From Mycobacterium sp. 050128 (GTDB lineage Bacteria; Actinomycetota; Actinomycetes; Mycobacteriales; Mycobacteriaceae), in assembly GCF_036409155.1 (NCBI RefSeq), contig NZ_JAZGLW010000007.1:62001-126000 (forward strand): 64,000 bases of DNA, in the 5' to 3' direction. Shown here piece after piece: positions 17,530 to 58,014 of the stretch. The stretch's first letter is position 1. Each line of letters opens with the position of its first letter. The notes beneath the pieces were generated by a model. It saw nothing but the letters and a program-made list of their open reading frames with translations, was not told the origin of the DNA and ran no database searches. A program made the translations under genes and the position numbers.

Positions 17530-17550
17530 CACCGGGGACGGGGGGAATTG

Positions 17551-19929: not shown

Positions 19930-19936
19930 CAGACCC

Positions 19937-20233: not shown

Positions 20234-20244
20234 GGACATTTGGG

Positions 20245-38383: not shown

Positions 38384-38454
38384 AAACCGCAGCGGGCCAG
38401 CACTGTTCGGCAGCACGTCATGAACCCGCTGCACGATGTCTGGGGTAGCCGATT

Positions 38455-38488
38455 TAGCGCGGATTTGGGTGCAGACACGGGTTAGGGT
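38455..38488 (+). promoter_or_regulatory. eccC promoter with TAGCGCGGAT box
   Basis: TAGCGCGGAT at 38455-38464 and the -10-like TAGGGT at 38483-38488. The GTG start of eccC follows after six bases, so a leaderless mRNA is predicted. The box and spacing recur at eccB and espI. Confidence 0.75.
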
Positions 38489-38494
38489 GATGAG

Positions 38495-41400
38495 GTGACC
38501 ACTCACAAATTTGAGCGCCCGGGCGATCCTGTCCGTCCCCCGAAAACTGGTGGCGGCAAGATCAAGTTAGAGCCGCCTATTGTGGCGCCGGTCCCGCCGC
38601 CGCGAAGCATTTGGGGCATCGTGTTGCCGGTCGTGCTGTTGGTTGGGATCGTCGGCTTGATCGTGGTGATGTACGCCTCGGGTGCTCGCCAATTAGCCGG
38701 TGGTTTCGGGCTTTTCGGTGGGATGGCGGCTTTTAGCGCGATCGGCATGGTGGTGCGTAACCGGGGGGCGTCCCGGAAAATGTCGTGGGGCGAGCTGACG
38801 GCGCGGCGGCGCAAGTGGTTCTCGCAGCAAGACGACACGCGCGACATTGTGGATGTTCAGCGCCGAGCGCAGTGGGAGCATCGCTGCCATTTCCATTGGG
38901 CGCCAGAGGATTTGATTGCGGTAGCAGGCTCGGTGCGGATGTGGGATCGCGAGCCGGGCGCGGACATGTTTTCGGTGGTGCGCGTCGGTGTCGGCAAGGT
39001 GAAGCTGGCGATGATGCTGGAAAAGCCGGAGATCGCACAGGCTGCTGACCTTGAGCCGGCAACGGGGCATGCGTTGCGCAAGTTCTTGAACGCCCAAGAG
39101 TACGTCGATGGTGTGCCCAAAGCGGTGTGGTTGCAACGTTTTCCCGGCGTCGGGATCGTAGGCAACCTCGAACAGGGGCGCGCATTGGTGCGTGCGATGT
39201 TATGCCAGCTGGCCGCCTTTCACAGCCCCGGTGATCTGGAAATCATCGTGGTGAGTTCTGCACCGACGCAATGGGATTGGGCGAAATGGCTTCCTCACAT
39301 GCAGCATGCCAGCGTGCGCGATGGCTGCGGTGAGCGTCGGATGCTGTTTTCCTCACCGGCTGAGTTGGAGGCGTTCTTCGATGAGGACCCCGACAGCTCG
39401 CGGGAGTCGTGGTCGGCGCCGTCTAGTGGCATGTCGGCTGGCGTTGGGGCGCAACCACTTCGGGTCATTGTCGATGATCACTGCGCGACCCCGGAGGACT
39501 GGGCGGGACTGACCGGCGCGCTCGGATATGCCAGCACCTGCTTTATCCGATTGGCAGAGCGTGTCCCACCGCGCCCGGGCGGCACGCTGGGCGGCGGCGC
39601 CAAGCAGTGGGTGGGATTTTCGCCGGAGACGACCTACCGCATCGACGGGGGAGTGCTGCGCAAGCAGGTGCTGCTCAGCGAGCAACAGCAGCATGCGGCG
39701 ACGATGTATGGGACGTCGGACACGAAGTCCGACGAGCTCGAGGAAGCGTTCTACGCGACCGCCGATCAGATGAGCGTTGACGGCGCAGAGCGTTTCGCTC
39801 GCGCCCTGGCCCGGTATCGCGCTAAGGGCTCGGCGAGTGTGGCCCTCGTCGACGAGGCTGAGCAGCGAGATGTCTTGGATGTGTTGGGGATTCGTGACCC
39901 CCGCCACCTCGACACCGACCGGTTGTGGGCAGCGACCCGGGCGCAGGGGCCGGGCTGGATGCGTTTCCCGATCGGGCTCTACACCGACACCGGTGAAACC
40001 GTGTGGCTGGATCTGCGGGAGGGCGCGCAGGGCGGCATGGGGATGCACGGGTTGTTCATCGGCACCACCGGCGCCGGGAAGTCCGAGGGTTTGATCACCG
40101 AGATCTCCGCGGCATGTTTGACGCACTCCCCGGAGGTCCTCAACATCGTGTTCACCGACTTCAAGCTGCGCTCGGCGGCCGGGGCGATTAGCCGGTTCCC
40201 GCATGTGGTGGCCGCGGTGAGCAACCTGTATGAGGAACGGCATTTGTTGGGGCGTCTTTATGACACTCTCGACGGTGAGCTGGATCGCCGGGGTGAAATG
40301 TTGGCCGCTCTTGACGATTGCCCGGATGTGACCAGCTATAACCGGCGTCGTCTGGTTGATCCGACTTTGCCTCCGATCCCGGTGCTGTGGGTGATTACCG
40401 ACGAATACAACGAGGTGTTCGCCGACCCGATCTGGGGGCCGAAGTTCCGCAAGCTGTATTTGCGGATTGCCCGGGTGGGCCGCTCGTTGCATGTGTTTTT
40501 GAAGTTGGTGGGCCAGACCAAGGACACCCAGAATCTGCGCGACATCACCAAGTTGCTCGGCTACAACATTGCGGCGCGCACCGGCACGGAGGAGGAATCC
40601 AAAGCCGGGATCGGCGATGCCCGGGCCGCTCATATCGCGCCTCGGGGCGAGGAAGGCACCGCCTATCTGCGGGTGGCGTTGCGGGAGGCGCGCAAGTTTC
40701 GCTACTTCTTCACCTCGGCTGATTTCGTTCCTCCCGAGGAGGGCGCGGAGGCCGCGCCGGCGCCGCGCCGGGCGGCCACGGAGTTCATTCCGCGGGTGTT
40801 CACGGTCGACGAAAGCGAGGATGTTGACGGCCGTCTGGCGCCCGAGCCTGAGCTCGTTGATCAGGCGAGCGCCGCGCCGGCGGCACCGCGGACTCCAGAG
40901 CAGGAGCCGGTCAAGATGGTGACGGCGATCGCCGAGTCGTTGCAGGCCGGTCCGGAGCGGCCGCCGCGCCCCATCTGGCTGCCGGTACTGGGGGATCCCA
41001 CACCGGCCGATGAGTTGGTGGCCCGCTGGCGGGGACGGCCGTGGCATGTGGACTATGGCAACAACCCGGGACTGTTCATGCCGGTAGCGCTGGCCGACTA
41101 TCCGCGCGGGGCCCGCCAGGAGCCGTACTGCATGGATTTGCTTCGCGACAACGCCCTCGTTGTGGGCGCGCCGACTCGGGGGGCGACTACTGCGGTGATG
41201 ACGATGGTGACGTCCACGGCGCTGCTGTATCGCCCGGAGCGGGTGCAGTTTTACTGCATCGCGGCCAGCGGCCCTCAGCTGGCACGGGTTTCGGATCTTC
41301 CGCATGTGGCGGCGGTGGTGGCGGGCACCGACAGCGAGGGTGTCACTCGGATCATCGCGACCGTGGAAGCGATCGTCAACGAGCGCGATAGGGCGTTCAC

Positions 41401-42745
41401 GACACAGCGCCTTGACATGGACCAGGTGCGCGTTGCGAAATTCGGCGCCGACCAATATGCCGGTGCCACACCGGTTACCGATGTCCAAGCGGCACGGTCG
41501 GTCGACGGTGGCGACGTCGTGTTGATTATCGATGGGTGGAAGAACTTCACCGAAACCTATACGAATCTGGCGCCGCGGGTCGCGGCGCTGATGCGGGCGC
41601 GGAACTACGGGGTGCGGGTGGTCTACACCCACACCAGCACCCTGTCGGGGATTTCCACGGGCATTAAGACCGAGACCGGGGTGACGCTGGAGCTCAAGCT
41701 GGTCCAAGAGCACGACACCACCGTCAAACGTGACCGGGCCGATCCGGAACGCAACCCGGCGCGCGAGGTCCCCGACAAGCCGGGCCGTGGGCTGACCCCC
41801 GATGGGCACCACATGATGGTGGGCTGGCCGGCTTTGGCTCATCCACCCACTGAGTCCGGCGAGCCGGACACGGCAGCGCGCCAGCTCGAGGCAGACGAGT
41901 TGAGCGCGGTGGTGCGCCGTGTGGCCGGGGTCGCGAAAGCTGCTGCGGTGGCGCGGCTGCCGGAGAAGGTTCTCCTCGACGATGTGTTCGCCGGGATCAC
42001 TGAGCCGCTTCCGGCTCGGGTGGTGCCGTTTGGTCTTGCTGAGTCGAATCTGCCTGGCGCGCCGCTGGTTCCGGCGACCATTGACTTTTTCGATCACCCT
42101 CACGCGGTGGCGACGGGGCTTGCCGAGTGTGGTCTGAGCACGTGGCTGCGCGCGATGATGCTCGGCATCATGCGTTCGTATCGCCCGGAGGACGCGACCA
42201 TCATTTTGTTGGAGCACCGCCGCGCCAATATCGGTGTGGTACCGCCTACGCAATGGTTGTCGGCCTACGCGCAGAATCCCAACCAGATCGCCGAAATCGT
42301 CAAGGAATTGGCGGCGCTGTTGGAAAAGCGTCGGCCGCCGCCGGGCGCCACGCCTGAGGATTTGGCCACGAAGCGATTCTGGGAGGGCCGCGAATTGTTT
42401 GTGATCATCGACGGGATCACCGCGTGGCCGGGTGCCAGCAGTCCATTGATGCCGCTGGCCCAATATGTTGCGGAAGCCGAGGATTTAGGGCTACACATTG
42501 TGGCTACCGCCGACATCGCGCAATTCAGCTATCACGCGCAATCAGGGCAGGGCGTGTTGGGCAAGATGATGAACATGACGCCACCAGTGGTGGTGATGAA
42601 TGGGTTGCGCCAGCACGGGGTGATCGTTCCTGGGGTGTATGCCGAGCCGCAGCGCGAGGGCAAGGGTCGGCTGGCTCGTCGCACGGCCATCGACAATGTG
42701 CTGGTGGGGTGGTCTGAGCCGCCGTTTGTGGGCAAACGCCGTTAA
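38495..42745 (+). CDS. eccC: ESX-P secretion ATPase EccC (FtsK/SpoIIIE family)
   Basis: A 1416-residue motor of the type VII channel, with two N-terminal membrane helices (residues ~38-90), a DUF/linker region and three FtsK-like ATPase domains. Domain 1 has Walker A GTTGAGKS near residue 523 and Walker B VLWVITDEYNEVF. Domain 2 has VVGAPTRGATTAV near 889, with no Lys at the canonical place. Domain 3 has GLAECGLSTWLRAM near 1208, again without the P-loop Lys. ESX motors rely mainly on domain 1; the others bind substrates and regulate. Unsplit EccC fits ESX-2 to ESX-5 and ESX-P rather than ESX-1. GTG 38495 is preferred because it sits six bases after the -10 element. Confidence 0.96.
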   Translation: MTTHKFERPGDPVRPPKTGGGKIKLEPPIVAPVPPPRSIWGIVLPVVLLVGIVGLIVVMYASGARQLAGGFGLFGGMAAFSAIGMVVRNRGASRKMSWGELTARRRKWFSQQDDTRDIVDVQRRAQWEHRCHFHWAPEDLIAVAGSVRMWDREPGADMFSVVRVGVGKVKLAMMLEKPEIAQAADLEPATGHALRKFLNAQEYVDGVPKAVWLQRFPGVGIVGNLEQGRALVRAMLCQLAAFHSPGDLEIIVVSSAPTQWDWAKWLPHMQHASVRDGCGERRMLFSSPAELEAFFDEDPDSSRESWSAPSSGMSAGVGAQPLRVIVDDHCATPEDWAGLTGALGYASTCFIRLAERVPPRPGGTLGGGAKQWVGFSPETTYRIDGGVLRKQVLLSEQQQHAATMYGTSDTKSDELEEAFYATADQMSVDGAERFARALARYRAKGSASVALVDEAEQRDVLDVLGIRDPRHLDTDRLWAATRAQGPGWMRFPIGLYTDTGETVWLDLREGAQGGMGMHGLFIGTTGAGKSEGLITEISAACLTHSPEVLNIVFTDFKLRSAAGAISRFPHVVAAVSNLYEERHLLGRLYDTLDGELDRRGEMLAALDDCPDVTSYNRRRLVDPTLPPIPVLWVITDEYNEVFADPIWGPKFRKLYLRIARVGRSLHVFLKLVGQTKDTQNLRDITKLLGYNIAARTGTEEESKAGIGDARAAHIAPRGEEGTAYLRVALREARKFRYFFTSADFVPPEEGAEAAPAPRRAATEFIPRVFTVDESEDVDGRLAPEPELVDQASAAPAAPRTPEQEPVKMVTAIAESLQAGPERPPRPIWLPVLGDPTPADELVARWRGRPWHVDYGNNPGLFMPVALADYPRGARQEPYCMDLLRDNALVVGAPTRGATTAVMTMVTSTALLYRPERVQFYCIAASGPQLARVSDLPHVAAVVAGTDSEGVTRIIATVEAIVNERDRAFTTQRLDMDQVRVAKFGADQYAGATPVTDVQAARSVDGGDVVLIIDGWKNFTETYTNLAPRVAALMRARNYGVRVVYTHTSTLSGISTGIKTETGVTLELKLVQEHDTTVKRDRADPERNPAREVPDKPGRGLTPDGHHMMVGWPALAHPPTESGEPDTAARQLEADELSAVVRRVAGVAKAAAVARLPEKVLLDDVFAGITEPLPARVVPFGLAESNLPGAPLVPATIDFFDHPHAVATGLAECGLSTWLRAMMLGIMRSYRPEDATIILLEHRRANIGVVPPTQWLSAYAQNPNQIAEIVKELAALLEKRRPPPGATPEDLATKRFWEGRELFVIIDGITAWPGASSPLMPLAQYVAEAEDLGLHIVATADIAQFSYHAQSGQGVLGKMMNMTPPVVVMNGLRQHGVIVPGVYAEPQREGKGRLARRTAIDNVLVGWSEPPFVGKRR

Positions 42746-42785
42746 CCGGCGGATAGTGCGACGAAAAAGTGGGTATAGGTGTACG

Positions 42786-42818
42786 ACCGTTCACACGCGG
42801 GTGTCGCGTGTGAACGGT
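42786..42818 (+). terminator. Perfect 14-bp inverted repeat after eccC
   Basis: ACCGTTCACACGCG-GGTGT-CGCGTGTGAACGGT forms a flawless stem of 14 pairs with a 5-base loop, 40 bases after the eccC stop. There is no U-run. It is either a transcription end or mRNA-processing hairpin, or an operator for the pe promoter that begins seven bases later. Confidence 0.55.
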
Positions 42819-42824
42819 AAGATT

Positions 42825-42857
42825 TAGCGTCAGACGTTGTCCGCGGGGCCATAAACT
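42825..42857 (+). promoter_or_regulatory. pe-ppe promoter with TAGCGTCAG box
   Basis: TAGCGTCAG at 42825-42833 and -10-like TAAACT at 42852-42857. Unlike the leaderless members, the transcript would have about 30 bases of leader, with a GGGGAGG ribosome site before ATG 42896. Confidence 0.6.
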
Positions 42858-42895
42858 GGACACCACAGTCGGGATGTATTTGGGGAGGCTGAATT

Positions 42896-43201
42896 ATGAC
42901 GAATCCACTATTGATCGCGGCTCCGGTGCTCGCCGGCGCTTCAGCTGCCGAAGAGGGCGGTGCAGCGACGATGGGCGGCACGATGGCCGGTGCTGCCGGC
43001 CCGGTGACGGCAGTTCTGCCACCGGGAGGCGAGGACGCGTCAGCGGCCGCGGCCGCCGGTTTCGCTGCGCACGGTGCCGCCACCGACGCGATGCTCACAC
43101 AGCTGACCCTGGTGCGGTCACTGTTCGCGCAGACCATCGCCAGCAGCGGCGTGGCTTACACCGCGATGGACGCGGCGAACGAGGCGACGCTAGTCATCTA
43201 G
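42896..43201 (+). CDS. PE-family protein of ESX-P
   Basis: A 101-residue helical-hairpin protein in the PE position: first helix LLIAAPVLAGASAAEEGGAA, a Gly/Pro turn, and second helix AAAGFAAHGAATDAMLTQLT with YTAMD near the C-terminus. YTAMD fits the YxxxD/E general secretion signal of T7SS substrates. The exact Pro-Glu opening is not conserved. Its partner is the PPE gene 27 bases downstream; PE-PPE pairs fold together, are bound by EspG and are exported as a dimer. The ribosome site GGGGAGG is clear. Confidence 0.8.
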   Translation: MTNPLLIAAPVLAGASAAEEGGAATMGGTMAGAAGPVTAVLPPGGEDASAAAAAGFAAHGAATDAMLTQLTLVRSLFAQTIASSGVAYTAMDAANEATLVI

Positions 43202-43228
43202 CCAGGCGCCGGGGGAGGCAAAGACGCG

Positions 43229-44425
43229 ATGAGCGCGTTTGGGGACGCCGGTGCTGTCCCGCCGGACATGAATCACACCCTGATGATCGCCGGGGATCTC
43301 GGGGCGAGCTTGGTGGGGGCGGCGGCGGGCTACGAATCAGTAGCCGACATGCTGATCGCTGAGCTGACGGCGATGGGGTTGACCACCTCGACCACCGCCA
43401 TGGTGGGGTGGCAAGGCCCGGCCGGGGAAATGATGCAGATGTCTGCCGCCGAGTTCATGGAGGTCTGTGCGGCAGCGTCGGCGTGGATTCGTATCGGTCA
43501 GATTCAAGCTGCTGAGGTGGCCGCGGCCCACACCGCGGCGGTCGAGCAGATGATTCCCGCCCCGGTGGTCTGGACCAACCGCGCCACCCAAGTCGGCTTA
43601 GTCGCCACGAATGCGTTCGGGCAGAACACACCCGCCATTAATGTCCTCGACGCACAGTATGTTGACTTTTGGGTGACCAACGCGACCAGCCGCACCCAAT
43701 ACGGCGCGGTGGTGTCGACGGCGCTGGGCGCGATTTCTGCACCGTTTCCGCTGTCGCCAACGGCCTCGAATCCGCTGGGCCCCGCGCTGGGTGTTGCCCA
43801 GGATGTAGGACAAACCGGAGGGCAAAGCGCGTTTCAGGCCGCCTCCAAAACGATGACCACCGCGGCCGACGGGCAGTCGCAACCGACGTCGATCATGTCG
43901 TCGATGGCGGGTCAGGCCGGTGGCCTGTTTGGCCAGGTGGGTTCGGCCTTCGGACAGGTCACGTCGGCGGGCCAGCAGCTGCCGTCGATGCTGGGGCAAG
44001 CGCCTCAGCTGTTTTCCGGGATGTTAGGCCCACTGTCGTCGATGAATGGTCTGAACAGTGCCGCCGCGGGCGGGCTGGGCCCCGAAACCGCCGCTGCGGG
44101 AGCGTCGATGGGGGGAATGGGCGCCGCCGGCGGAGGCGGGGGTGGACTGCTGACCGGGTCGTCAGCGTTATCGAGCAGCTTTGTGCGCCCTGCCAGCAGC
44201 TTTAGCACCCCGACCGCGCCCACCTTGCCGGGCGGTTGGCAGGGTTCCTCGACGACGGCGGGCGAGTCGTCGCCGCGCCCGGCCGGTGTGGGCGGCGGCG
44301 GCCTTTACGGCGCCCCGGGGGCGGCGGGCCGCGAGACTGCCAGCGGGGAGCAGCAGCGCCCGGGCCGCACCATGCAGGTCACTGAGCGGCCCGGATCGAG
44401 TAGGGGGGAGCGGCAACGAGCCTGA
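43229..44425 (+). CDS. PPE-family protein of ESX-P
   Basis: A 398-residue protein with a PPE-like helical bundle in residues ~1-165: opening VPPDMNHTLMIAGDLGASLV, MVGWQGPAGEMMQMSAAEFM containing the W-x-G motif, and ATQVGLVATNAFGQNTPAIN. The C-terminal half is Gly/Ala/Gln-rich (GQAGGLFGQVGSAFGQVTSA) and ends in a basic tail. It starts Met-Ser, with PPD rather than PPE. It pairs with the PE protein and is probably recognised by the EspG encoded at 45280. Confidence 0.85.
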   Translation: MSAFGDAGAVPPDMNHTLMIAGDLGASLVGAAAGYESVADMLIAELTAMGLTTSTTAMVGWQGPAGEMMQMSAAEFMEVCAAASAWIRIGQIQAAEVAAAHTAAVEQMIPAPVVWTNRATQVGLVATNAFGQNTPAINVLDAQYVDFWVTNATSRTQYGAVVSTALGAISAPFPLSPTASNPLGPALGVAQDVGQTGGQSAFQAASKTMTTAADGQSQPTSIMSSMAGQAGGLFGQVGSAFGQVTSAGQQLPSMLGQAPQLFSGMLGPLSSMNGLNSAAAGGLGPETAAAGASMGGMGAAGGGGGGLLTGSSALSSSFVRPASSFSTPTAPTLPGGWQGSSTTAGESSPRPAGVGGGGLYGAPGAAGRETASGEQQRPGRTMQVTERPGSSRGERQRA

Positions 44426-44430
44426 GAAAA

Positions 44431-44465
44431 AAGCGTCTGGGACCCCCTCAACGGGCTTCTAGACT
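44431..44465 (+). promoter_or_regulatory. esxBA promoter with AAGCGTC box
   Basis: AAGCGTC at 44431-44437 and -10-like TAGACT at 44460-44465, at the spacing seen for other locus promoters. A leader of about 40 bases with AAGGAG precedes ATG 44512. Confidence 0.55.
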
Positions 44466-44511
44466 CAGAATCACCACCGACGGCACACCATTTGTTGCAA
44501 GGAGAATTTAG

Positions 44512-44835
44512 ATGTCACAACCCATTCACGTTGATCAAAGTTCAGTGGTCAGCCTGGCCGGACAGATGGACGAATTGTCCCATCGCGCGCAAGACGTTTT
44601 GTCTCGCTATTCGGACCTGGTGCAGCATGGCAATTCCGCGCAGTACCTGCGGGGTAGCGCCGGGTCGACCAACCTGGTGACCGCTGAAGAAATCCACGAG
44701 GCCCAGAACAAGATCCAGTCGCGATTCCAGTCGGTCAACGAACTGCTGCGCAGCGGTGCCTCGCAGTACCACAACACCGACTCCGAGGCCCAAGGGCACA
44801 TCGCGTCGGTGGCGGGCCACCTACGTTTCACCTGA
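44512..44835 (+). CDS. esxB: EsxB-like (CFP-10-type) WXG100 protein
   Basis: A 107-residue helix-turn-helix substrate: first helix SSVVSLAGQMDELSHRAQDV, turn RGSAGSTN, second helix IHEAQNKIQSRFQSVNELLR and a C-terminal YHNTD that fits the YxxxD/E export signal. The WXG tripeptide in the turn is not conserved (LRGSAG). It is followed by esxA 48 bases downstream, with its own ribosome site (AAAGGAATT). EsxB-EsxA heterodimers are exported through the channel, with the EsxB tail bound by EccC. Confidence 0.85.
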   Translation: MSQPIHVDQSSVVSLAGQMDELSHRAQDVLSRYSDLVQHGNSAQYLRGSAGSTNLVTAEEIHEAQNKIQSRFQSVNELLRSGASQYHNTDSEAQGHIASVAGHLRFT

Positions 44836-44883
44836 TCCCTGCCAGCACAGCATTTTTCGCTACGACGAGCAAAGGAATTCACG

Positions 44884-45186
44884 ATGTCAGAAGGACCAAT
44901 GATCTACCACCCGGCCGGCCTGGCCGATATGACGGCCGGCATGCACAGCTTCGCTCAGGAGCTGGATTCGATTGGGCAAGAAGCACATAACTTGCTCGCG
45001 TCCTCACGCGACTTCTTCTCGGGGCCGCACGGTGCTGAGGCCTACGCGCAAGCGCAGCAGTTGATCAACGAGGGCATTCAGGACGGCAAGGATGTCATCT
45101 TCCGGCACGGGGACACCATCGACGGAGCCTCGCAGGCCTTCCAGGCCGCCGACAGCACCGTTGGCCAAAGCTTTCAGTCGATCTAG
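44884..45186 (+). CDS. esxA: EsxA-like (ESAT-6-type) WXG100 protein
   Basis: A 100-residue protein: MIYHPAGLADMTAGMHSFAQ, LDSIGQEAHNLLASSRDFFS, turn FFSGPHGAEAY, second helix AQQLINEGIQDGKDVIFRHG. The WXG turn has Phe-Ser-Gly in place of Trp-x-Gly. No YxxxD/E is visible, as expected for the EsxA partner. It is the last gene of the esxBA unit; a strong hairpin follows 28 bases later. A secreted heterodimer partner. Confidence 0.85.
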   Translation: MSEGPMIYHPAGLADMTAGMHSFAQELDSIGQEAHNLLASSRDFFSGPHGAEAYAQAQQLINEGIQDGKDVIFRHGDTIDGASQAFQAADSTVGQSFQSI

Positions 45187-45214
45187 GTCAGGGTTTAGCC
45201 GTCAGAACCCGTAT

Positions 45215-45246
45215 AGAGGGGGGCCAGCTGCGGCGGGCCCCCCTCT
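45215..45246 (+). terminator. Strong GC-rich hairpin after esxA
   Basis: AGAGGGGGGCC (45215-45225) pairs with GGCCCCCCTCT (45236-45246) over a 10-base loop. It separates the esxBA unit from espG. Only a short TT follows, so it may act as an intrinsic-like or mRNA-stabilising hairpin. Confidence 0.75.
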
Positions 45247-45279
45247 TGCGCGTCACATCATGATCGGGGGTTGCGAGCT

Positions 45280-46134
45280 GTGTTGAACACATCGGTCGAA
45301 TGCGTGTGGGCTCTGCAAGCGTTGCTCGGTGTCGAGCGGATGCCGATCAGCTTGCATCTCAAGCCCTACATCCCGTCGGCGCACTCCGATCTGATCGTCG
45401 AGACGGACGCGGGCAAGGTTCCCCTGGCCAACACTGCGCAATACCACAGCTTGGTGCAGGCGGGCGTGATCGACGAGCACGGCCGAGTCGACGCCGCGGT
45501 GCGGGATTGGATGACGGTACTCGGCCGCGCCGAGCGCGAGGTGGTCCTCACTATTCGCCGGCCCGATCAGCCTGCGACGCAGGACTGCGGCGCCACGGTG
45601 CATGAGCGCGTCATGGCGGTGTGCCGTTACGGCCGCTATTTGGCGATGGCAGCGCGCGACGGCGAGGAGATGGTGATCGGCGGGGTGGGCGAAAGCGATG
45701 AGCCCACACACCAAGTCGAGCTGATGTGCCACATGCTGCTGCCCGCTTTCGGTGATCACCCGCCGGCCGACATCGACGGCATCAACGTCCCCAAAGGCAT
45801 GATGCAAATGGCGATCGACGCGGCCGGGCGCGAACCGGAAGCGATGGCGGCGGCGCTGCGCCGGCTGGGCCTGGGTCCGTGGGAGGTCGAGGTGGTGCAG
45901 GCGGCCGCGGACTTGGATCAGTCGGCGATGGCGGTGGTGGCCGTCATCGACCACTGCCCCGACGTGCGCCCCCACTCACGCGTGTTGACCGTGGCCGACA
46001 CCGAGTATGGGCGGATCAGTTTCACCACCACCACCGGTGCGGACGGCAAGGAATGGACGAGCATCTGGCCGACCACCGCAACCGGTCTGCGCGACGATCT
46101 GGCCAACCTGCTGTCTGCTCCGCAGCTGGTCTGA
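45280..46134 (+). CDS. espG: EspG PE-PPE chaperone of ESX-P
   Basis: A 284-residue cytosolic chaperone. The pattern fits EspG: VECVWALQALLGVERMPISL near the N-terminus, LVQAGVIDEHGRVDAAVRDW (typical of EspG), REVVLTIRRPDQ, AMAAALRRLGLGPWEVEVVQ and a C-terminal GRISFTTTTGADGKEWTSIW. EspG binds the tip of the PPE partner and keeps PE-PPE dimers soluble until they reach EccC. GTG 45280 or TTG 45271 could start the protein; the GTG gives the more compact N-terminus. Confidence 0.85.
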   Translation: MLNTSVECVWALQALLGVERMPISLHLKPYIPSAHSDLIVETDAGKVPLANTAQYHSLVQAGVIDEHGRVDAAVRDWMTVLGRAEREVVLTIRRPDQPATQDCGATVHERVMAVCRYGRYLAMAARDGEEMVIGGVGESDEPTHQVELMCHMLLPAFGDHPPADIDGINVPKGMMQMAIDAAGREPEAMAAALRRLGLGPWEVEVVQAAADLDQSAMAVVAVIDHCPDVRPHSRVLTVADTEYGRISFTTTTGADGKEWTSIWPTTATGLRDDLANLLSAPQLV

Positions 46135-46168
46135 CAGTCGCCATGACGTATGTCTTGGGTCGCCCAAT

Positions 46169-46203
46169 TAGCGCGGATATCGTGCAATGAGCGCCGGTAA
46201 GGT
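46169..46203 (+). promoter_or_regulatory. eccB promoter with TAGCGCGGAT box
   Basis: TAGCGCGGATATCGTGCA starts at 46169, with -10-like TAAGGT at 46198-46203 and ATG after six bases (leaderless). The 18-base run TAGCGCGGATATCGTGCA also occurs before espI. Confidence 0.78.
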
Positions 46204-46209
46204 TTCCTC

Positions 46210-47712: not shown

Positions 47713-47747
47713 CCAGTAACGATGACGAAAATCCAGGCCAACGCAAC

Positions 47748-47781
47748 TAGCGCGGATATCGTGCATTGCCGCTGATAGGAT
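47748..47781 (+). promoter_or_regulatory. espI promoter with TAGCGCGGAT box
   Basis: TAGCGCGGATATCGTGCA from 47748 and -10-like TAGGAT at 47776-47781. ATG 47789 follows after seven bases, so leaderless translation is likely. Confidence 0.78.
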
Positions 47782-47788
47782 CAACAAT

Positions 47789-50915: not shown

Positions 50916-52540
50916 TGCGTGTCAAGGCCGCGGCCTCCGCATTGGGTGCGGCCGCTTTGGTGGCCGCCCATGTGATCGCTGCGCCGGCCGCGATGGCCGT
51001 GGCGCCGCCGGTGATCGATCCAGGAGCGTTGCCGCCGGCGGAAACACCGGGCCCGGCCGAAGAGATGCGGCAAAGCGAGGCGTGCATCCTGCCCGTCGTA
51101 ATTGCCGATCCGAACGTCGCCCAGCCCGCCCCGGGTAACGCGATGCTCAACGTGACGCAGGCCTGGCAGTATTCGACGGGCGCCGGGGTGACGGTCGCCA
51201 TCGTCGACACCGGCGTCACCCCCAATCCGCGGTTCCCGTCGCTGTTCGCTGGCGGCGACTATGTGCAGGGATTGCCCAATGGTGGACTGACCGACTGCGA
51301 CAACCACGGTTCCTTCGTCGCCAGCATCATCGGCGCCGCCCCGTCGAACCCCGCCAGTCGGCCCGCGTCGAAACCGGCCGGTGCGGGGGCACCGGCCGCT
51401 CCGCCACCGGTGCCTGCCAATCCGGCACCTCCGCCGCCGACTCCCAAAGCGCCGCCGCCCTCAACGGTCACGGTGACCGCGCCCCCACCGCCGCCACCCC
51501 CGCCGGGAGGCGATGCTCCCGCCGACGGTGCGGGAGGCTCCAACACGGGGCAACCGCTGGTGGCTGGACCCCCGCCGACGGGACCTGACGGGGTGGTCGG
51601 TGTGGCGCCTGACGCCACGCTGATCTCAATCAGGCAAGCCTCCGCCGCGTTCTCTCCGGCCCATCCGACCCCCGAAGAACAAGACCTGCACCGCAAAGCC
51701 GGTGATGTCCTGTCATTGGCCAAAGCGATCCGCACCGCGGCCGACCGCGGCGCGAGGGTGATCAACGTGTCGCTGGCGTCGTGCACCAACGCTGCGGCAC
51801 CGGTCAATCAAGACGCGCTCGGGGCGGCGGTGCGCTACGCCGCGGTGGACAAGGACGCGGTGATCGTGGCCGCGGCCGGCAACCGCAATGACCCCATGCA
51901 GCACGACTGCGGCCAGAACCCGGTTTTTAACCCGCTCAACGTCGATGACCCACGAGACTGGGCCGGGGTGCGCACCATTGTGAGCCCGGCCTGGTTCTCC
52001 GATTACGTGCTCGCTGTGGCAGCGGTGACCCCGGAAGGCCAGCCGATGCCCGATTCCATCAACGGTCCTTGGGTGGGGGTCGCCGCGCCCGGATCGCGCA
52101 TCATGGGGCTCTCGAGTGTCAACGGTGCGGCGGTCAACGCCTCACCCGGCACCGACCCTGGCACCGGAAACGGAGTGTGGGGCACCAGCTTTTCGGCGGC
52201 GTACGTGGCCGGTGTCGCTGCCCTGGTGCGCGCCAAATACCCGGATCTAAGTGCACACCAGGTGATTCGGCGCATCATGGAGACCGCCCACAATCCCGCC
52301 CACACCGTCGATAATCAGGTCGGGCACGGGGTGGTGGACCCCGTGGCCGCCCTGACCTTCGATATCACCCCGGGTGACCCCAAGCCTGTCGAGCACCTCA
52401 GCACGGCTCTGCATGTGCCACCCAAGCCGCCGACCCCCGATCTGCGGCCACGCAACGTAGCCCTGCTGGGCCTGGGCGTCGTGGTCCTGGCCGCCGGCGC
52501 GCTCTTTGGTGTAATGGCCATCAAACGGAGAATGTCGTGA
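50915..52540 (+). CDS. mycP: Mycosin, membrane-anchored subtilisin-like protease MycP
   Basis: A 541-residue protease with a signal peptide (residues 1-30), a subtilase domain and a C-terminal membrane helix (ALLGLGVVVLAAGALFGVMA). The catalytic triad is D98 (VAIVDTG), H131 (DNHGS) and S425 (GTSFSA). Residues ~145-225 form a Pro-rich insert (PPPSTVTVTAPPPPPPPP) in the loop after His, longer and more Pro-rich than the core fold requires. Mycosins cap the periplasmic side of the complex and are needed for stability and secretion, independent of most proteolysis. Starts within the eccD stop. Confidence 0.95.
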   Translation: MRVKAAASALGAAALVAAHVIAAPAAMAVAPPVIDPGALPPAETPGPAEEMRQSEACILPVVIADPNVAQPAPGNAMLNVTQAWQYSTGAGVTVAIVDTGVTPNPRFPSLFAGGDYVQGLPNGGLTDCDNHGSFVASIIGAAPSNPASRPASKPAGAGAPAAPPPVPANPAPPPPTPKAPPPSTVTVTAPPPPPPPPGGDAPADGAGGSNTGQPLVAGPPPTGPDGVVGVAPDATLISIRQASAAFSPAHPTPEEQDLHRKAGDVLSLAKAIRTAADRGARVINVSLASCTNAAAPVNQDALGAAVRYAAVDKDAVIVAAAGNRNDPMQHDCGQNPVFNPLNVDDPRDWAGVRTIVSPAWFSDYVLAVAAVTPEGQPMPDSINGPWVGVAAPGSRIMGLSSVNGAAVNASPGTDPGTGNGVWGTSFSAAYVAGVAALVRAKYPDLSAHQVIRRIMETAHNPAHTVDNQVGHGVVDPVAALTFDITPGDPKPVEHLSTALHVPPKPPTPDLRPRNVALLGLGVVVLAAGALFGVMAIKRRMS

Positions 52541-54285
52541 AAGCGCGCCCGGTCACCATCCGTCCCGCCTTGGGCGCTGTCGTCGGCGCCGAGGTGATCG
52601 GAATCGGCGCGTTCGCCGCACTGCCGACGTGGCTTTTCGGGTGGTGGCCCGCAACAGGGATCACCCTGGCCGCGGTGGTGCTGCTGGTCGTCACGGTGCA
52701 CCGGCGCAACGCCGCAGCCTGGGTGCTGGACCGGTCACGCTGGATGCGCGCTCGCCGGCACACCACCGCCGTGGGCGCTGCGGTGGACATCAGCCACGGC
52801 GGCAACGTGTACGGAGTGCGCACCGCCGACAATGAGGCCGTCGCGATGATCGAAGTCGACGGCCGACCGTATTCACCGACATACCTGCGGGGTTCGACGC
52901 TGGCGTTGACCGACAATCTGCTGCCGCTCGACGTGGTGATCGGTCTGATGGAACAACCCGGCGGTCTGCACCTGGGTATCGACGTCGCGACCGCAGGGTA
53001 TCGGGTCCGCCCGGGCACCGGGTACCCGCAGCTTTACGGCACATTATTGGCGGATCGGGGCGCAGCCGGGCAACGCACCACTCATTTGATCGTGCGCCTC
53101 GACATCAACGAATCGGTCCGCGGCCTGATGTACCGCCGCTCGATCGGTTCTGCGGCAGCCGCGGCGACCGAGCGCATCGTCAAAGCCCTTGAGCAGCAAG
53201 GCTGCCGGGCCCGCGTTCTCAACGCCGAAGAACAAGACACGATGCTCGAGGACCTCAGCATGGGCCTAGCTTGTGCGCCGCCCCGCCCGCCGGTCATCGA
53301 CGAGGTCGAGGACCTCGATACCGCCGCGGCCGGTGAGGGTGCCGACCAGCTCGAGCTGATCGGCTCGGGCGGCCGCCATCAACGTGCCGCGGGTGCCGCG
53401 TCCGCACCGCTGACCGCTGCGCAACGGACACGCCCCAAAGCCGACGTCGGGTGGAAAACCATCAACGCCAAACCCGGTTATGTGACCTCGTATTACTTTT
53501 CGCCCGAAGACATCACGACCGAATCGTTCAACCAGATGTGGTCACTGCGGAGCGACCACATCGTGCATGTGCTGATGCTGCGCAAAGTCCCCGCCGGCCC
53601 GGTGACGGTGTCGGCGCTGGTGCGTACCAACGACCCTCGCCCACCAGAGCAGCCCCCCACGTTGTTCCTCAACACGTTGCCGGGCAGCCAGTACAACGCT
53701 GCACTGCGAGCCGCGCCGACAACCCAACCCGCGCTGCATTTGCCGGCTCGGCCGTTGACTGCCGTCGACGAGGTGCAGGTCCCAGTCGGTCCGACCGGCA
53801 TCCTGGTCGGAGCGGCGCTTCGTGACGACAAGTCGGCGTGGCCGCCGATCCAGCGCGACGACTTGGTGATGTGGCCGTTGACCGACGCGGCGCAACCGAC
53901 CCGCATTGTCATGGACACCTCGGATTTCTATGTACGCCAGCTGCTGATCCGGGCCGCCGCGGCGGGCGAACGTGTCGCCATCTACTCTCGCGAGCCGCGG
54001 CGCTGGTATTCGGTATCGCAAACCAACATCGCAGTGGTCGAAGCACGCCGGGCCGCCGAGTTCGTACCAACGGTGATCGTCAACGATCGGGCTACCATCG
54101 CGCCGCAGGCCGGGCTGTCCTCAACAGTGATCACTGTGGGCCACAGCCCAACCGACGCCATGGTGCCCGATATTAGGTTTGAGCAGACCTCGGAGTCGAC
54201 CGTGCGCATCACGACCGCCGCACGAACTGTCGACCTATCCATGGTGGTGTTCCGTCAAGAACAAACGTGGACCGGCAGCGCCTAA
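52537..54285 (+). CDS. eccE: ESX-P core component EccE
   Basis: A 582-residue protein with two N-terminal membrane helices (LGAVVGAEVIGIGAFAALPT; ATGITLAAVVLLVVTVHR) and a large cytosolic domain. The latter includes VYGVRTADNEAVAMIEVDGR, VRLDINESVRGLMYRRSIGS and GYVTSYYFSPEDITTESFNQ. EccE sits at the edge of the ESX membrane complex. The GTG start overlaps the mycP stop. It ends the espI-eccD-mycP-eccE operon. Confidence 0.93.
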   Translation: MKARPVTIRPALGAVVGAEVIGIGAFAALPTWLFGWWPATGITLAAVVLLVVTVHRRNAAAWVLDRSRWMRARRHTTAVGAAVDISHGGNVYGVRTADNEAVAMIEVDGRPYSPTYLRGSTLALTDNLLPLDVVIGLMEQPGGLHLGIDVATAGYRVRPGTGYPQLYGTLLADRGAAGQRTTHLIVRLDINESVRGLMYRRSIGSAAAAATERIVKALEQQGCRARVLNAEEQDTMLEDLSMGLACAPPRPPVIDEVEDLDTAAAGEGADQLELIGSGGRHQRAAGAASAPLTAAQRTRPKADVGWKTINAKPGYVTSYYFSPEDITTESFNQMWSLRSDHIVHVLMLRKVPAGPVTVSALVRTNDPRPPEQPPTLFLNTLPGSQYNAALRAAPTTQPALHLPARPLTAVDEVQVPVGPTGILVGAALRDDKSAWPPIQRDDLVMWPLTDAAQPTRIVMDTSDFYVRQLLIRAAAAGERVAIYSREPRRWYSVSQTNIAVVEARRAAEFVPTVIVNDRATIAPQAGLSSTVITVGHSPTDAMVPDIRFEQTSESTVRITTAARTVDLSMVVFRQEQTWTGSA

Positions 54286-54298
54286 AGACCCGTGAAAA

Positions 54299-54333
54299 TA
54301 GCGGACGGCCACGGGGTGTCGAGGATTTAACCT
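54299..54333 (+). promoter_or_regulatory. Transfer-module promoter with TAGCGG box
   Basis: TAGCGGACGG from 54299 and -10-like TAACCT at 54328-54333, six bases before ATG 54340. A weaker copy of the box seen at eccC, eccB and espI. Confidence 0.55.
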
Positions 54334-54339
54334 TAAATC

Positions 54340-54876
54340 ATGGCTGCGCAGAACACCGTGATCGCACTTGATGGAACCCGGCGCTACCACTCGGCGGATT
54401 CGAGTGGCCTGTTCACCATCAAAGAAGTCAGCCAGGCCTGCGGCCTGCCAGGGCCGGTGATCATGCAGCTGGTGCCCCGGACTTGGGTTGAACCAGTGGG
54501 TTGGCTCTACACACTCGACCAAATCCGCGCGGCCATCACGATTTCCGAGGATCTACACCCTCCGTCTGAGACCAATCAGACTGAGGCGCAACGGGACCCG
54601 ATCGAAATGCTGTCCTGCGCGCGTTGCTTTGTGCTCACCGACGTCGCCGATGCGAGAGTTCGCGGCTGGCTCAACGTCGTAGAGCCTGACAGCAGTGGGC
54701 CGGCGGCCTGGGATGGCAAGGATTACTGCGCGCAGTGTGTGATTCGGTGCCCGAGCTGCCGAACCGATGTTAGTGACGGTCTGTGTGAGACGTGTTTCGG
54801 CGCGCGGAAGATTCCGAGGCCGCCACTTGCAACGAATTTTGTGCAGTCAACGCCACTGCGGCGGCCTTACCGTTGA
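54340..54876 (+). CDS. Zn-ribbon protein with MerR/excisionase-like N-terminus
   Basis: A 178-residue protein. Residues ~20-70 (GLFTIKEVSQACGLPGPVIM, then GWLYTLDQIRAAITI) resemble a MerR/excisionase-type winged HTH. Residues ~90-160 hold four CxxC pairs (CARC, CAQC, CPSC, CETC), enough for two zinc ribbons. A DNA-binding or protein-docking role is likely. It is the first gene after the ESX core and precedes the VirD4-like ATPase by three bases, so it could regulate or assist DNA processing for transfer (inference). Leaderless start. Confidence 0.65.
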   Translation: MAAQNTVIALDGTRRYHSADSSGLFTIKEVSQACGLPGPVIMQLVPRTWVEPVGWLYTLDQIRAAITISEDLHPPSETNQTEAQRDPIEMLSCARCFVLTDVADARVRGWLNVVEPDSSGPAAWDGKDYCAQCVIRCPSCRTDVSDGLCETCFGARKIPRPPLATNFVQSTPLRRPYR

Positions 54877-54879
54877 TGA

Positions 54880-56250
54880 ATGGCAATTGCGAACAGCACT
54901 GACGGATTTCGGCCACCGGTAACCCCTTTCGCCGGATGGACGCGAGACGGTCACGGGCGGCTGGTTCCCTTGGAAACGGCGCCCCACGTCGGTGGGTTCG
55001 CGCCGCCGGGAACCGGCAAAACACGCCGCTGGCTGGCCCAGTCCGCGGTGCTGTGGCCCGGCCCCGCGTTTGTGTCATCCAGTAAAGACGACCTGATGCA
55101 AATGGTGGCGTCGCGCCGCTACGGCCCTACAGCGCTGTTGGACCTGCGCCCGATCACTGCGCCCTACTATCCCAAAGACTATGTCTCGTACCGCTTTGAC
55201 CCCACAGCGCTGATCACCAGCCTCAACGACGCTATAGCAACAGCCCAAAGCCTGCTGAGCACATCAGCAATTGCCCTGTCCGGCAGCGCATTTCGCCAGG
55301 GCTCCGATCCTGGGCCGTGGGATCAGCTAGCGCTTGCACCGCTGGTGTGCCTGCTGTACGCGGCCAGCCCAGAGGGCACCGGGCAGGGGATGGAGTGGAC
55401 CCTTGAAGCCTCAGAAAACGTCGAAGTCGGCCATCGTCACGACGCTTACCAAACGTCATGGAAACCCGGATGGGCCAGCGCCGCCGCGTGGACGGCTGAC
55501 CCGCTGTTCGAGGCGCGAGTGCGCGCCGTGCTGGAAATGGAACCTAAGCAACGCGATTCGGTGAAAATGACCGTGACCAAAGTTCTCACCGCCTGGCTGC
55601 TTACAACCAAACGCGACCGCAAGTTCCCGTCGCTGGACTTGTCGTTCTTCGACGGCGCAGACGCCACGCTGTTCCTCCTGACCCCTGCTGATGGAACGGT
55701 CGCTGCGCAAGCAATTGTGTTGATGGATCAGCTGATCAATCGGCAACGTATGAAAGTGGCGCAGTGGGAGGAATTTCACCGCATCGGGCTGTTCCTCGAC
55801 GAGATCACCAACACTCCGATTCCTCGGCTTCCCCAGTATTTGGCCGAATCGCGTGGGCTCGGATGTTCTATTTGCTTTGCGGCGCAGGCCGGTTCGCAAC
55901 TCGATGCCATTTATGGCCCGTTGCAAGGCAAGGCCATCCGAGATGTCACTCCCGCGGCGATGATCATGTACGGCTCCCACGAGCGCGATATCATGGAATC
56001 GGCCGCATTCTGGTCAGGCAAAGCAACACGCAGCCACCAAAGCTACGATCACAACTCGGATAACAAAAGCACCAGCCGCCACTTCGGGAATGCCTTGGAG
56101 CCAGCGGAGTTGCTGCCCCGCAACATCGGGGAGGCCCGGCTGATCCCCAGGGGCGCGCCAGGCGAGATGGTAGAGCTGATCGATTGGGACGAGTTCATCA
56201 CATACCTCGACGAGCTGCGCGCCGCTCGCCGGCGGCGTGTAGCATCTTAA
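54880..56250 (+). CDS. VirD4/TcpA-like conjugative coupling ATPase
   Basis: A 456-residue ATPase with Walker A PPGTGKT (residues 42-48), SSSKDDLMQMVASRRYGPTA (typical of VirD4/TraG proteins), Walker B RIGLFLDEITNTPI and IPRLPQYLAESRGLGCSICF. A C-terminal arginine/serine region follows (MIMYGSHERDIMESAAFWSG). No membrane helices are seen, unlike classical VirD4; a partner membrane protein may anchor it. Coupling proteins deliver the relaxase-DNA complex to the transfer channel. It stands at the head of the DNA-transfer module. Confidence 0.85.
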   Translation: MAIANSTDGFRPPVTPFAGWTRDGHGRLVPLETAPHVGGFAPPGTGKTRRWLAQSAVLWPGPAFVSSSKDDLMQMVASRRYGPTALLDLRPITAPYYPKDYVSYRFDPTALITSLNDAIATAQSLLSTSAIALSGSAFRQGSDPGPWDQLALAPLVCLLYAASPEGTGQGMEWTLEASENVEVGHRHDAYQTSWKPGWASAAAWTADPLFEARVRAVLEMEPKQRDSVKMTVTKVLTAWLLTTKRDRKFPSLDLSFFDGADATLFLLTPADGTVAAQAIVLMDQLINRQRMKVAQWEEFHRIGLFLDEITNTPIPRLPQYLAESRGLGCSICFAAQAGSQLDAIYGPLQGKAIRDVTPAAMIMYGSHERDIMESAAFWSGKATRSHQSYDHNSDNKSTSRHFGNALEPAELLPRNIGEARLIPRGAPGEMVELIDWDEFITYLDELRAARRRRVAS

Positions 56251-56713
56251 ACACGTTGTTACAGTGCTACTTTGGTGCCAATGAAACTTGCCATCTCAAA
56301 AAATGGAGTCTTTGGACGTGAATAGTCTTGACGAAGACACGGCCGCCGAGGCCGCCGAAACGACACGCATTTGAGGCTAGTCGCCGACGACACGACGCGC
56401 GACGGGTCGGATTGCCGTAGGTCAGAGCTTGGCGATATGTCAGGGCCCTGTGCGGCGGTGAGCGTTGGCGCCGTCTCCGACCACGGGGGCTGGCGGGCGT
56501 GGCGCTGACAAGTGGCCCGCCGGCTGAGGCGTGTACCACAACCTGCTTGTGCTGTCGCGGAGAAGTCACGCGGGCCGCGCGCACTCCCGCCAGCGGACGT
56601 CACACACTGTGGGCACTAAACAGCAGCGCCGCCTCAGTGAATCAGTAACAGCAGGCAGCGAAGCCCAGATCGGAGTCATCCTGGGCCCGCGGCAGCCCAG
56701 TGGCGGCAAAAAA
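56251..56713. other. Non-coding gap of about 460 bp inside the transfer module
   Basis: Neither strand shows a protein-like frame with a sound start. The composition alternates GC-rich (ACGGCCGCCGAGGCCGCC) and AT-rich parts. It lies between the coupling-protein gene and the next transcription unit. It may hold the origin of transfer or a regulatory RNA, but no diagnostic nic motif could be identified by eye. Confidence 0.4.
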
Positions 56714-56747
56714 TAGCGCAGGAGAGCGTCTTTGGGCGCTTTACGCT
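56714..56747 (+). promoter_or_regulatory. Promoter with TAGCGC box
   Basis: TAGCGCAGGA from 56714 and -10-like TACGCT at 56742-56747. ATG 56754 follows after six bases (leaderless). Confidence 0.6.
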
Positions 56748-56753
56748 CAAAGT

Positions 56754-57425
56754 ATGGCCGTTGACCTGCCTCCGGACCGCTTCGATGACGTCCGGCGAGA
56801 ATGGATCGCCTACCACCAATGGTGGTCGACGATTCAGCGCTGCCGCGCCGAGCAGCTCGGGCGGATCGTGCGCAAACGGCAGCGCATTCGCACCTCGGCG
56901 GTACCAGATCCACACGACGACACCCGAATCGATCCACTGTGGATGCGGGCAGCCAAGTCGCGGGCCGCGCGCGTGGAGGTGGCCTTCGTAGTGGCGGCAG
57001 CCGTCATTGCGCCGATCGGGTGGGCAGGGGGGTGGGTGTTGAAGGCCATGCTGGTCCGCCTGATCCCGCAGACGCTGCGCGGCTTCCCGGTCGCGGCGAT
57101 GTTGTGGGCTGGGGCTGCCTTCGCCGCGCTGACGGTGGTGATTTCTCAGCTCGTCTACGACCCGGCAGGCTCATTCGGCCAAATCGCGGTACTGCCCTGG
57201 CTGTGTTTACAGCTCGTCATGATTCCCACGGTGGCGGGCATCTACGGCATCGCCGAGGGCTGGCTGGCTGTCGCAGGATCTGACCAATGGTGGCCGCTGA
57301 CCCCGGTCAAAAAGCCGATCACGCCCGAGGACGCGGCGGCCATTTTGGGTGCCTACGACATGACCGGGCCAGGGGTGGTCGACACACGACCGCTGCACGA
57401 GCCTGGCGAAAGGACGCGCCCGTGA
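56754..57425 (+). CDS. Transfer-module membrane protein
   Basis: A 223-residue protein. The cytosolic N-terminus (RFDDVRREWIAYHQWWSTIQ) is followed by three or four membrane helices: VEVAFVVAAAVIAPIGWAGG, FPVAAMLWAGAAFAALTVVI and IAVLPWLCLQLVMIPTVAGI. The C-terminal tail is cytosolic (LTPVKKPITPEDAAAIL). ATG 56754 is chosen because it fits a leaderless promoter; a GTG at 56700 lies upstream of the -10 element. It could anchor the soluble VirD4-like ATPase (inference). It is convergent with the HTH gene. Confidence 0.7.
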   Translation: MAVDLPPDRFDDVRREWIAYHQWWSTIQRCRAEQLGRIVRKRQRIRTSAVPDPHDDTRIDPLWMRAAKSRAARVEVAFVVAAAVIAPIGWAGGWVLKAMLVRLIPQTLRGFPVAAMLWAGAAFAALTVVISQLVYDPAGSFGQIAVLPWLCLQLVMIPTVAGIYGIAEGWLAVAGSDQWWPLTPVKKPITPEDAAAILGAYDMTGPGVVDTRPLHEPGERTRP

Positions 57426-57433
57426 CCAGCGAT

Positions 57434-57931
57434 TCACGCAGAGTTGGCGTCGGCGATCGAAGTGGTCGAGCCGTGCCAGGCGCCCAACTGCTCATCGGGG
57501 TTCAGTTCGATGAGGACGCGCCGAATAAGGTCGATGCGCCGCTCGACAGCGGCATGGTCCTCTTCGAGCCGGTCGAGTTCGTCGCGGAGCTGAGCCGTGA
57601 GCCGTTCTGTGATCTCGTCTTCACTGACAGGCCGAAGTGGGTGCTTCTTTTCGCGAAGGCCGGCCCGGTTACGGCGGGGAGTGAGGCTCATGGGATGGCC
57701 GCCGAGCAGCACGACCGCCGCAGAGCCGGGTTGCCACCCGAGGGTGGCGTCCAGGCGCAGCAAAGTGCCGACAGCCGGGGTGTTTTGGGCTTTGCGGCGG
57801 CGGGCCTTGACGAGGGTATCGACACCGGGGCCGCCGCGATCCGCCACTTCCTGCTTAGACATGTTCAGCTGCGCGAGACGGGCCTCGACGAAGTGGATGA
57901 GCCGGTCGATCCCGTCGGCTGGGGCGGTCAT
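57434..57931 (-). CDS. HTH-type (XRE-like) regulator of the transfer module
   Basis: A 165-residue protein. The N-terminal region IHFVEARLAQLNMSKQEVAD, then GVDTLVKARRRKAQNTPAVG, fits an XRE-like HTH. A C-terminal coiled coil (RLTAQLRDELDRLEEDHAAV, ERRIDLIRRVL) would dimerise it. ATG 57931 is preferred over GTG 57940 because the latter overlaps the -10 element TAGGGT. Its promoter contains TAGCGGATAT, the box shared with eccB and espI, so it is a candidate controller of the whole box regulon, including itself (inference). Confidence 0.7.
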   Translation of the reverse strand: MTAPADGIDRLIHFVEARLAQLNMSKQEVADRGGPGVDTLVKARRRKAQNTPAVGTLLRLDATLGWQPGSAAVVLLGGHPMSLTPRRNRAGLREKKHPLRPVSEDEITERLTAQLRDELDRLEEDHAAVERRIDLIRRVLIELNPDEQLGAWHGSTTSIADANSA

Positions 57932-57938
57932 ATCCCGC

Positions 57939-58014
57939 ACCCTACCGCACGAAATGCCCCATATCCGCTACCAGATTCCGGACCCGGATTTCTGTCACAT
58001 CCGATAACTAGGGT
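57939..58014. promoter_or_regulatory. Back-to-back promoters with CGGATA/CGGATT boxes
   Basis: On the minus strand, TAGCGGATAT (57970-57961) precedes TAGGGT (57944-57939) and ATG 57931. On the plus strand, CGGATTT (57985-57991) precedes TAGGGT (58009-58014) and ATG 58021. Both transcripts are predicted leaderless and may share regulator binding. Confidence 0.65.

Follow-up and report, generated by a model that had tools for sequence, protein, structure and literature searches.

Which signal might place the ESX secretion genes of a mycobacterial plasmid and its DNA transfer genes under common control? The question is raised by a stretch of 64,000 nucleotides from Mycobacterium sp. 050128, bases 62001-126000 of the 161,868-bp contig C7 (hereafter the window; its own numbering is used unless contig positions are named). 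Its genes include an ESX cluster of the plasmid type and gene 54880, a type IV secretion system (T4SS) coupling protein (TraG-D_C / T4SS-DNA_transf match). EccB of this cluster shares 67-75% identity with EccB of five PLSDB plasmids in which the eccC-to-eccE block is syntenic (pP4-4a, pCBMA213_2, and those of M. branderi, M. vanbaalenii, and M. poriferae). The original prediction proposed a plasmid-wide promoter class, a single box plus a leaderless TAnnnT, that ties ESX-P secretion to transfer. We find that the shared class exists and is conserved in related plasmids (80 promoters, 14 loci), that it is made of two overlapping elements rather than one box, and that it is not confined to plasmids, as one of these elements also occurs at chromosomal ESX-1 loci. 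Judged from the sequence, we think it probable that a WhiB6-SigA regulon joins ESX secretion to DNA transfer, with a helix-turn-helix (HTH) protein as a second control on the ESX genes.

A promoter element upstream of ESX and transfer genes

As predicted, exact copies of TAGCGCGGAT lie upstream of eccC (38455), eccB (46169), and espI (47748); the window has no others. Taken alone, the 10-mer is without significance: with one mismatch allowed it has 7 matches against 4.1 expected, a count equalled in 14 of 100 shuffles. It is best read as the end of one element fused to one arm of another. The first of these, element 1 (AAAWTnGYGC), lies at about -46 to -36, 26-27 bases before a TAnnnT that is itself usually 6-7 bases before the start codon. 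It is found upstream of eccC, eccB, espI, the Zn-ribbon gene (54340), the coupling-protein gene 54880, and gene 56754, and also in related plasmids.

The promoter set comprised 80 rows, drawn from seven genes at 14 loci; L063, almost the same as L064, was excluded. TAnnnT is located 5-8 bases before the start in 77 of the 80 promoters, where starts with such a -10 were preferred by the script; the leaderless count is slightly weakened because use of the nearest start alone gives 71 of 80. A two-block matrix was trained on 47 sites from other loci, none of them from the window or from the HTH gene, and without the near-duplicates L004, L064, and L066 or rows lacking TAnnnT. In order, it specifies a run rich in A, a T, one variable position where A is frequent, GYG, and in most cases C; the first G and the T of TAnnnT are 27 bases apart in 35 training sites and 26 in nine. 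The anchoring rule favours GYG and A, by which the information content is somewhat flattered and the held-out tests are unaffected.

Three sets were held out: contig C7, a sample of the host chromosome (20 stretches, 400 kb), and chromosomal ESX-1 regions (145 kb, seven genomes outside training). At 20 bits or more, the matrix detects seven sites in the contig, all within the window and six of them leaderless, eight in the ESX-1 regions, and none in the host chromosome sample (maximum 18.8). At 12 bits or more, the counts are 28, 18, and 9, respectively. In ten of the 28 contig sites the -10 is followed, at a distance of 4-9 bases, by a start codon with an open frame; at the same threshold, ten Markov-1 synthetic sets contained 5-16 sites each, of which 0-3 had a start. 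Box, spacing, and leaderless start together are far beyond chance. The plasmids pP4-4a and pCBMA213_2 have 12 and 15 sites of at least 20 bits, respectively, which include training sites and hence are not independent.

The fixed distance to the -10, with the GYGC end reaching the -35 region, is also what might be expected if element 1 were the -35 signature of an alternative sigma factor, plasmid- or host-encoded. We consider this quite unlikely, given that the -10 of these promoters is the ordinary TAnnnT and that the A tract reaches about -46, whereas sigma region 4 usually reads less far upstream. The lack of any site of at least 20 bits in the 400 kb of host chromosome also argues against a host-wide sigma factor; plasmid sigma factors were not searched for.

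The window sites of element 1 described next are on the plus strand. That of eccC (38450-38460, 22.1 bits, spacing 26, gap 6) is followed by TAGGGT at 38483-38488 and a GTG start at 38495, and is kept upstream of eccC orthologues. The eccB site (46164-46174, 27.7 bits, spacing 27) precedes TAAGGT at 46198-46203 and ATG 46210, and that of espI (47743-47753, 22.2 bits, spacing 26) precedes TAGGAT at 47776-47781 and ATG 47789. Variants of the box had been proposed at further genes and are present at those places. The Zn-ribbon gene has a site of 25.7 bits (54294-54304, -10 TAACCT 54328-54333) and gene 56754 one of 29.0 bits (56709-56719, -10 TACGCT 56742-56747). The esxB site reaches only 15.1 bits (44426-44436, -10 TAGACT 44460-44465; by eye kept in orthologues) and the pe upstream region stays below 9 bits in the matrix listing of the contig, both genes being leadered. 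One site had been overlooked, that before the coupling-protein gene (54834-54844, 27.1 bits, -10 TACCGT 54868-54873). The top score in the contig belongs to a site at 17317 (box 17310-17320, whole site 17310-17349, 31.5 bits), which lies about 190 nucleotides before a DUF4226 gene (17548-19557) and 20 kb from the ESX cluster.

The start codon follows the -10 by 6-7 bases in eccC, eccB, espI, 54340, 56754, the HTH gene, and 58021, seven genes in the 38-58 kb part, and in the paralogues 33275 and 34023, in agreement with the prediction; the transcripts would be leaderless if, as we infer, transcription starts there. The paralogues (33275-33841 and 34023-34586) have sites of 16.4 bits (33229-33239, -10 TACCCT 33263-33268) and 16.1 bits (33977-33987, -10 TACGCT 34011-34016). 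They stand in tandem, with 128 of 191 aligned positions identical, and both keep the box and the leaderless GTG start. Outside the window, an element 1-like site (18.7 bits) is located about 31 nucleotides upstream of an NrdH-type glutaredoxin gene (contig 144524-144763, minus strand).

A second element and the HTH protein

The second element (element 2) has the form TRTC-N21-GAYA and overlaps the -35 regions of eccC, eccB, espI, and the divergent pair formed by the HTH gene and 58021. The 90 bases preceding each start were scanned for it, one mismatch being tolerated and the near-duplicate loci L004, L064, and L066 dropped. Of the 34 promoters of eccC, eccB, espI, and the HTH gene, 31 have it at N=21, and no other spacing between 14 and 28 exceeds 12 promoters; none of the 28 promoters of the Zn-ribbon, coupling-protein, and 56754 genes has it. 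On this distribution, one single motif for the whole class is rejected. Element 2 is also absent from the eight chromosomal ESX-1 sites.

In the window, element 2 lies on the plus strand at 38437-38465 (eccC, one mismatch), 46151-46179 (eccB, none), and 47730-47758 (espI, one). A fourth copy, on the minus strand at 57962-57990 (one mismatch, N21), lies between the -10s of the HTH gene (57939-57944, minus) and of 58021 (58009-58014, plus), with arm 57962-57968 over the -35 of the HTH gene and arm 57984-57990 over that of 58021. The HTH gene had been counted among the carriers of close variants of the eccC box, and 58021 as having CGGATTT only. Both have no good AAAWTnGYGC (the HTH gene promoter scores only 13.4 bits) and have element 2 instead. 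The HTH gene (57434-57931, minus strand, true start ATG 57931) encodes an XRE-like protein of 165 amino acids with orthologues in the plasmid group; the divergent leaderless gene occupies 58021-58371 on the plus strand.

The HTH protein has no Pfam match, and among three orthologues scanned there is one HTH_3 match (E 0.0063), below cut-off. Searching PDB sequences with a profile yielded only weak hits (E 0.098 or worse), chiefly in the coiled-coil part. The predicted structure has a helical N-terminal part, at low-to-moderate confidence (predicted template modelling score 0.38, mean predicted local distance difference test 68), and no conclusion is based on it.

Across the plasmid group, and also in M. 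abscessus plasmid 2, the dyad at the HTH gene's own promoter keeps its N21 spacing. Readable promoters of the M. vanbaalenii/M. poriferae-like lineage (L004, L005, L064-L066) have C at position 3 of the arm, where other loci with the arm have G or A; the exception is L003, with C in eccC and G in eccB. The HTH proteins of L004 and L005 differ in the helix region from those of L001, L002, and the window. Such co-variation would be the expected look of a dimeric regulator with a co-evolving operator, and the HTH protein probably binds element 2. In M. abscessus plasmid 2, the arms read TTTGTC / GACARAA with N21 intact at eccC, the divergent HTH region, and, by eye, espI (L195, 12124, 21550, and 31991), a natural operator swap in which the arms change and the spacing is kept.

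The HTH protein had been proposed as regulator of the class, and it is a good candidate at element 2. It is very improbable that it recognises the whole class by itself, with TAGYGC as part of its operator. In favour of this, its gene sits among the genes concerned, its intergenic region has the best palindromes, and the eccC, eccB, and espI boxes contain an operator arm of element 2. However, the 28 promoters that have only the box lack element 2, the HTH gene's own promoter has no good box, and at chromosomal ESX-1 loci the box comes without element 2. The second regulator that had been put forward, the Zn-ribbon protein, is rejected, as its orthologues in L004 and L005 have lost the ribbon and those plasmids keep the boxes.

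A WhiB6-like and EspM-like pair on plasmids and chromosomes

Regulators had been sought among the proteins of the window; the best candidate for element 1 lies outside it. At contig 55510-55809 (minus strand) is a WhiB6-like gene, divergent from an EspM-like gene at 55883-56710 (plus strand). A divergent WhiB/EspM-like pair is present in all six plasmids of the group, and the arrangement is the same in W01-W05. The translation of 55510-55809 has four cysteines, as in the four-cysteine Wbl domain; the protein itself is not in the Pfam list, and of its relatives those in W03, W04, and W05 are over the Pfam cut-off and those in W01 and W02 below. The single PDB match of the window plasmid's WhiB at E of 0.01 or lower is WhiB6 (8d5v, 1.3e-22). 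For the four plasmid WhiBs compared with 11 of the 12 host WhiBs, the best host match is the WhiB beside espM (54-61%), well above the others. In the related plasmids, the XRE protein divergent from WhiB matches, where scanned, the NCBIfam model of the ESX-1 regulator EspM over its C-terminal part (2.4e-78, below the curated cut-off).

Further genes of this kind were observed outside the window: a second, longer EspM-like gene (contig 19811-20842, 389 bits) with another WhiB gene about 3 kb off (23965-24096). The whiB-espM intergenic regions of pP4-4a and pCBMA213_2 contain repeated CTTAAGTT-like words, which may be sites of the EspM-like protein.

Other plasmids were also scanned. The M. paragordonae plasmid (best WhiB 33% identical to that of the window plasmid) has no box above 13.6 bits in its ESX region. 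M. abscessus plasmid 2 (WhiB 41%) reaches 17.5 bits at best and has, by eye, a variant box common to the coupling-protein gene and its neighbour. The M. arabiense plasmid, with a 55% WhiB6-like gene and no site above 13 bits in its ESX region, was considered as a counter-example and rejected: in the 50 kb around the WhiB6-like gene there are sites of 27.8, 18.8, 18.0, 14.7, 14.0, 13.2, and 13.2 bits, surrounding the WhiB6-like and EspM-like genes. It appears to be a telling case, if on one plasmid only, of boxes that follow the pair and not the ESX locus. This segment (L207, 343000-392700) has no ESX genes; its element 1 sites occur with genes for FHA, sensor-domain, and zinc metallopeptidase proteins beside the WhiB6-like gene, which may point to a use of the circuit independent of ESX.

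Because the plasmid pair includes an EspM-like protein, and EspM represses whiB6 from a divergent position (PMC7002343, PMC11005418), we examined chromosomal espM loci. Of 30 such loci, 15 have a site of at least 20 bits; none of 300 control windows of 4.1 kb, chosen at random, has one. A WhiB6-like gene shares the same 4-kb locus in 14 of the 15 that bear a box. Among the eight sites of at least 20 bits in the ESX-1 regions, six precede an EspA/EspE-family gene (L166, L168-L172), one (L171) precedes a PPE gene directly after an FtsK/SpoIIIE-type (EccC-like) gene ending at 10809, and one (L169) a WXG100-like gene. Weaker sites are found before PPE genes (L166, 14.4 bits; L168, 16.7 bits) and WXG100-like genes (L166, 16.4 bits; L171, 19.8 bits). 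EspA/EspE family, PPE, FtsK/SpoIIIE, and WXG100-like are the computed labels; espE, espK, and PE35 are names applied to chromosomal loci.

WhiB6 is reported to activate ESX-1 substrate genes, and whiB6 deletion lowers but does not abolish the espE transcript (PMC11005418). Its overexpression altered esxA and espK but not eccD1 (PMC6343904), it likely binds at the PE35 promoter (PMC11728522), and it bound the whiB6-espM intergenic region in electrophoretic mobility shift assays (PMC7002343). The main text of PMC4301838 has no occurrence of WhiB6. The shared element suggests that the same kind of regulator, WhiB6, would turn on plasmid transfer and ESX-1 secretion.

Element 1 could be bound by the EspM-like protein, or by another activator (EspN-like) that travels with WhiB6, instead of WhiB6 itself: the EspM-like and WhiB genes go together in the six plasmids and in the 14 loci mentioned above, and EspN is needed for espE transcription when EspM is absent (PMC11005418). 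We hold this to be unlikely, with no search of the plasmids made for EspN-like genes. The known target of EspM, the whiB6-espM region, has no strong box, a point that also weighs against WhiB6. The place of element 1 just upstream of the -35 matches the Wbl-SigA precedent.

Proposed control and comparison with known systems

In the WhiB6-SigA regulon that we propose, element 1 would be the promoter signature of a WhiB6-like Wbl protein acting with the housekeeping SigA. The plasmid WhiB6-like protein, whose gene adjoins that of an EspM-like repressor, would dock onto region 4 of SigA and contact the A/T tract just upstream of the -35 region. Secretion genes, the coupling protein, and other transfer genes would thereby be switched on together, mostly as leaderless mRNAs. 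That the protein activates these promoters is suggested by analogy with WhiB7, which binds SigA region 4 and places its AT-hook on an AT-rich motif just upstream of the -35 (PMC3905903, PMC10245118). A dimer of the XRE-like protein would occupy element 2, regulate its own gene and, in addition to the WhiB6 signal, tune the costly ESX machine. Because element 2 overlaps the -35 region, this protein could block access of SigA/WhiB6 or, like a class II activator, help; we infer repression to be somewhat likelier than activation. In pMK12478, a pRAW-like plasmid outside the set scanned here, a transposon study classed five consecutive ESX-locus genes as growth-advantage (PMC10470612), as fits a need to keep ESX expression within limits.

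Several observations count against this proposal. The other 15 of the 30 EspM loci have no site of at least 20 bits, and the seventh ESX-1 region (L173) has none above 14. The whiB6-espM intergenic region reaches 14.4-16.7 bits in 3 of 15 loci and stays below 13 in the rest. PMC6343904 is inconsistent on whether WhiB6 raises or lowers ESX-1 transcripts. The conjugative plasmid pRAW has WhiB genes (best 28% identical to that of the window plasmid), but within its ESX region of 41 kb no box scores higher than 15.1 bits. The plasmid protein scores 263 bits against a cut-off of 550 for the EspM model (NF052403) and matches only in the C-terminal part, without the FHA half, and is therefore termed EspM-like, not EspM proper. 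In a de novo expectation-maximisation search from annotated starts of pP4-4a, ribosome-binding sites came first, and from -75 to -23 a GC-rich motif appeared, the box not ranking first. In pCBMA213_2, the box was among the top motifs with a modest lead (76.5 against 61.5-71.5 in synthetic controls). The analysis was moved to orthologous promoters because of this modest rank, and these related loci share descent, so that counts overstate independent events.

More tentatively, the EspM-WhiB6 circuit and its promoter element might form one transferable control unit of conjugative ESX plasmids and chromosomal ESX-1, in which case the ESX-1 programme would derive from a plasmid-transfer regulon by domestication, or the other way round, and the promoters of host and plasmid could each respond to the other's WhiB6. 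We regard this as possible but doubtful; if true, ESX-1 status and plasmid transfer would be coupled in one cell. For the idea that ESX systems spread through plasmids, element 1 gives a counterpart at the level of regulation. In a literature search that lay mostly outside subscription journals, no WhiB6 recognition sequence stood out in the text available and no paper on the regulation of ESX conjugative plasmids turned up. A specific element of fixed spacing, on plasmids and at ESX-1 loci, makes both questions directly testable.

Among known systems, pRAW (ESX plus T4SS-like) resembles the window plasmid in an ESX cluster accompanied by WhiB and HTH genes, and differs in the lack of strong element 1 sites in its ESX region and in its distant WhiBs. 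In pRAW (L194, 37585-39949), a gene annotated as Pycsar effector adjoins two cyclase-domain genes directly after eccA. The plasmid pCBMA213_2 belongs to the same family and has the same boxes; its whiB6 has already been noted (PMC5452490), and the words promoter and regulator are absent from the available text of that paper, where promoter element and EspM-type regulator are not described under those words. In WhiB7-SigA promoters, too, an A/T tract directly precedes the -35 region; in element 1, an almost invariant nGYG comes after the tract, at 26-27 bases from the -10, and the candidate protein is WhiB6-like.

The WhiB6-EspM control of chromosomal ESX-1 in M. marinum and M. tuberculosis offers a further comparison. 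Both combine a divergent WhiB6-like/EspM-like pair with ESX targets, and the promoter element before ESX-1 substrate-type genes is the same, spacing included. On the plasmids, in contrast, the promoters are mostly leaderless, the FHA half is missing from the EspM-like protein, the ESX promoters are overlapped by a second XRE operator, and the putative targets include the ESX machine itself (eccC, eccB) and the DNA-transfer coupling protein.

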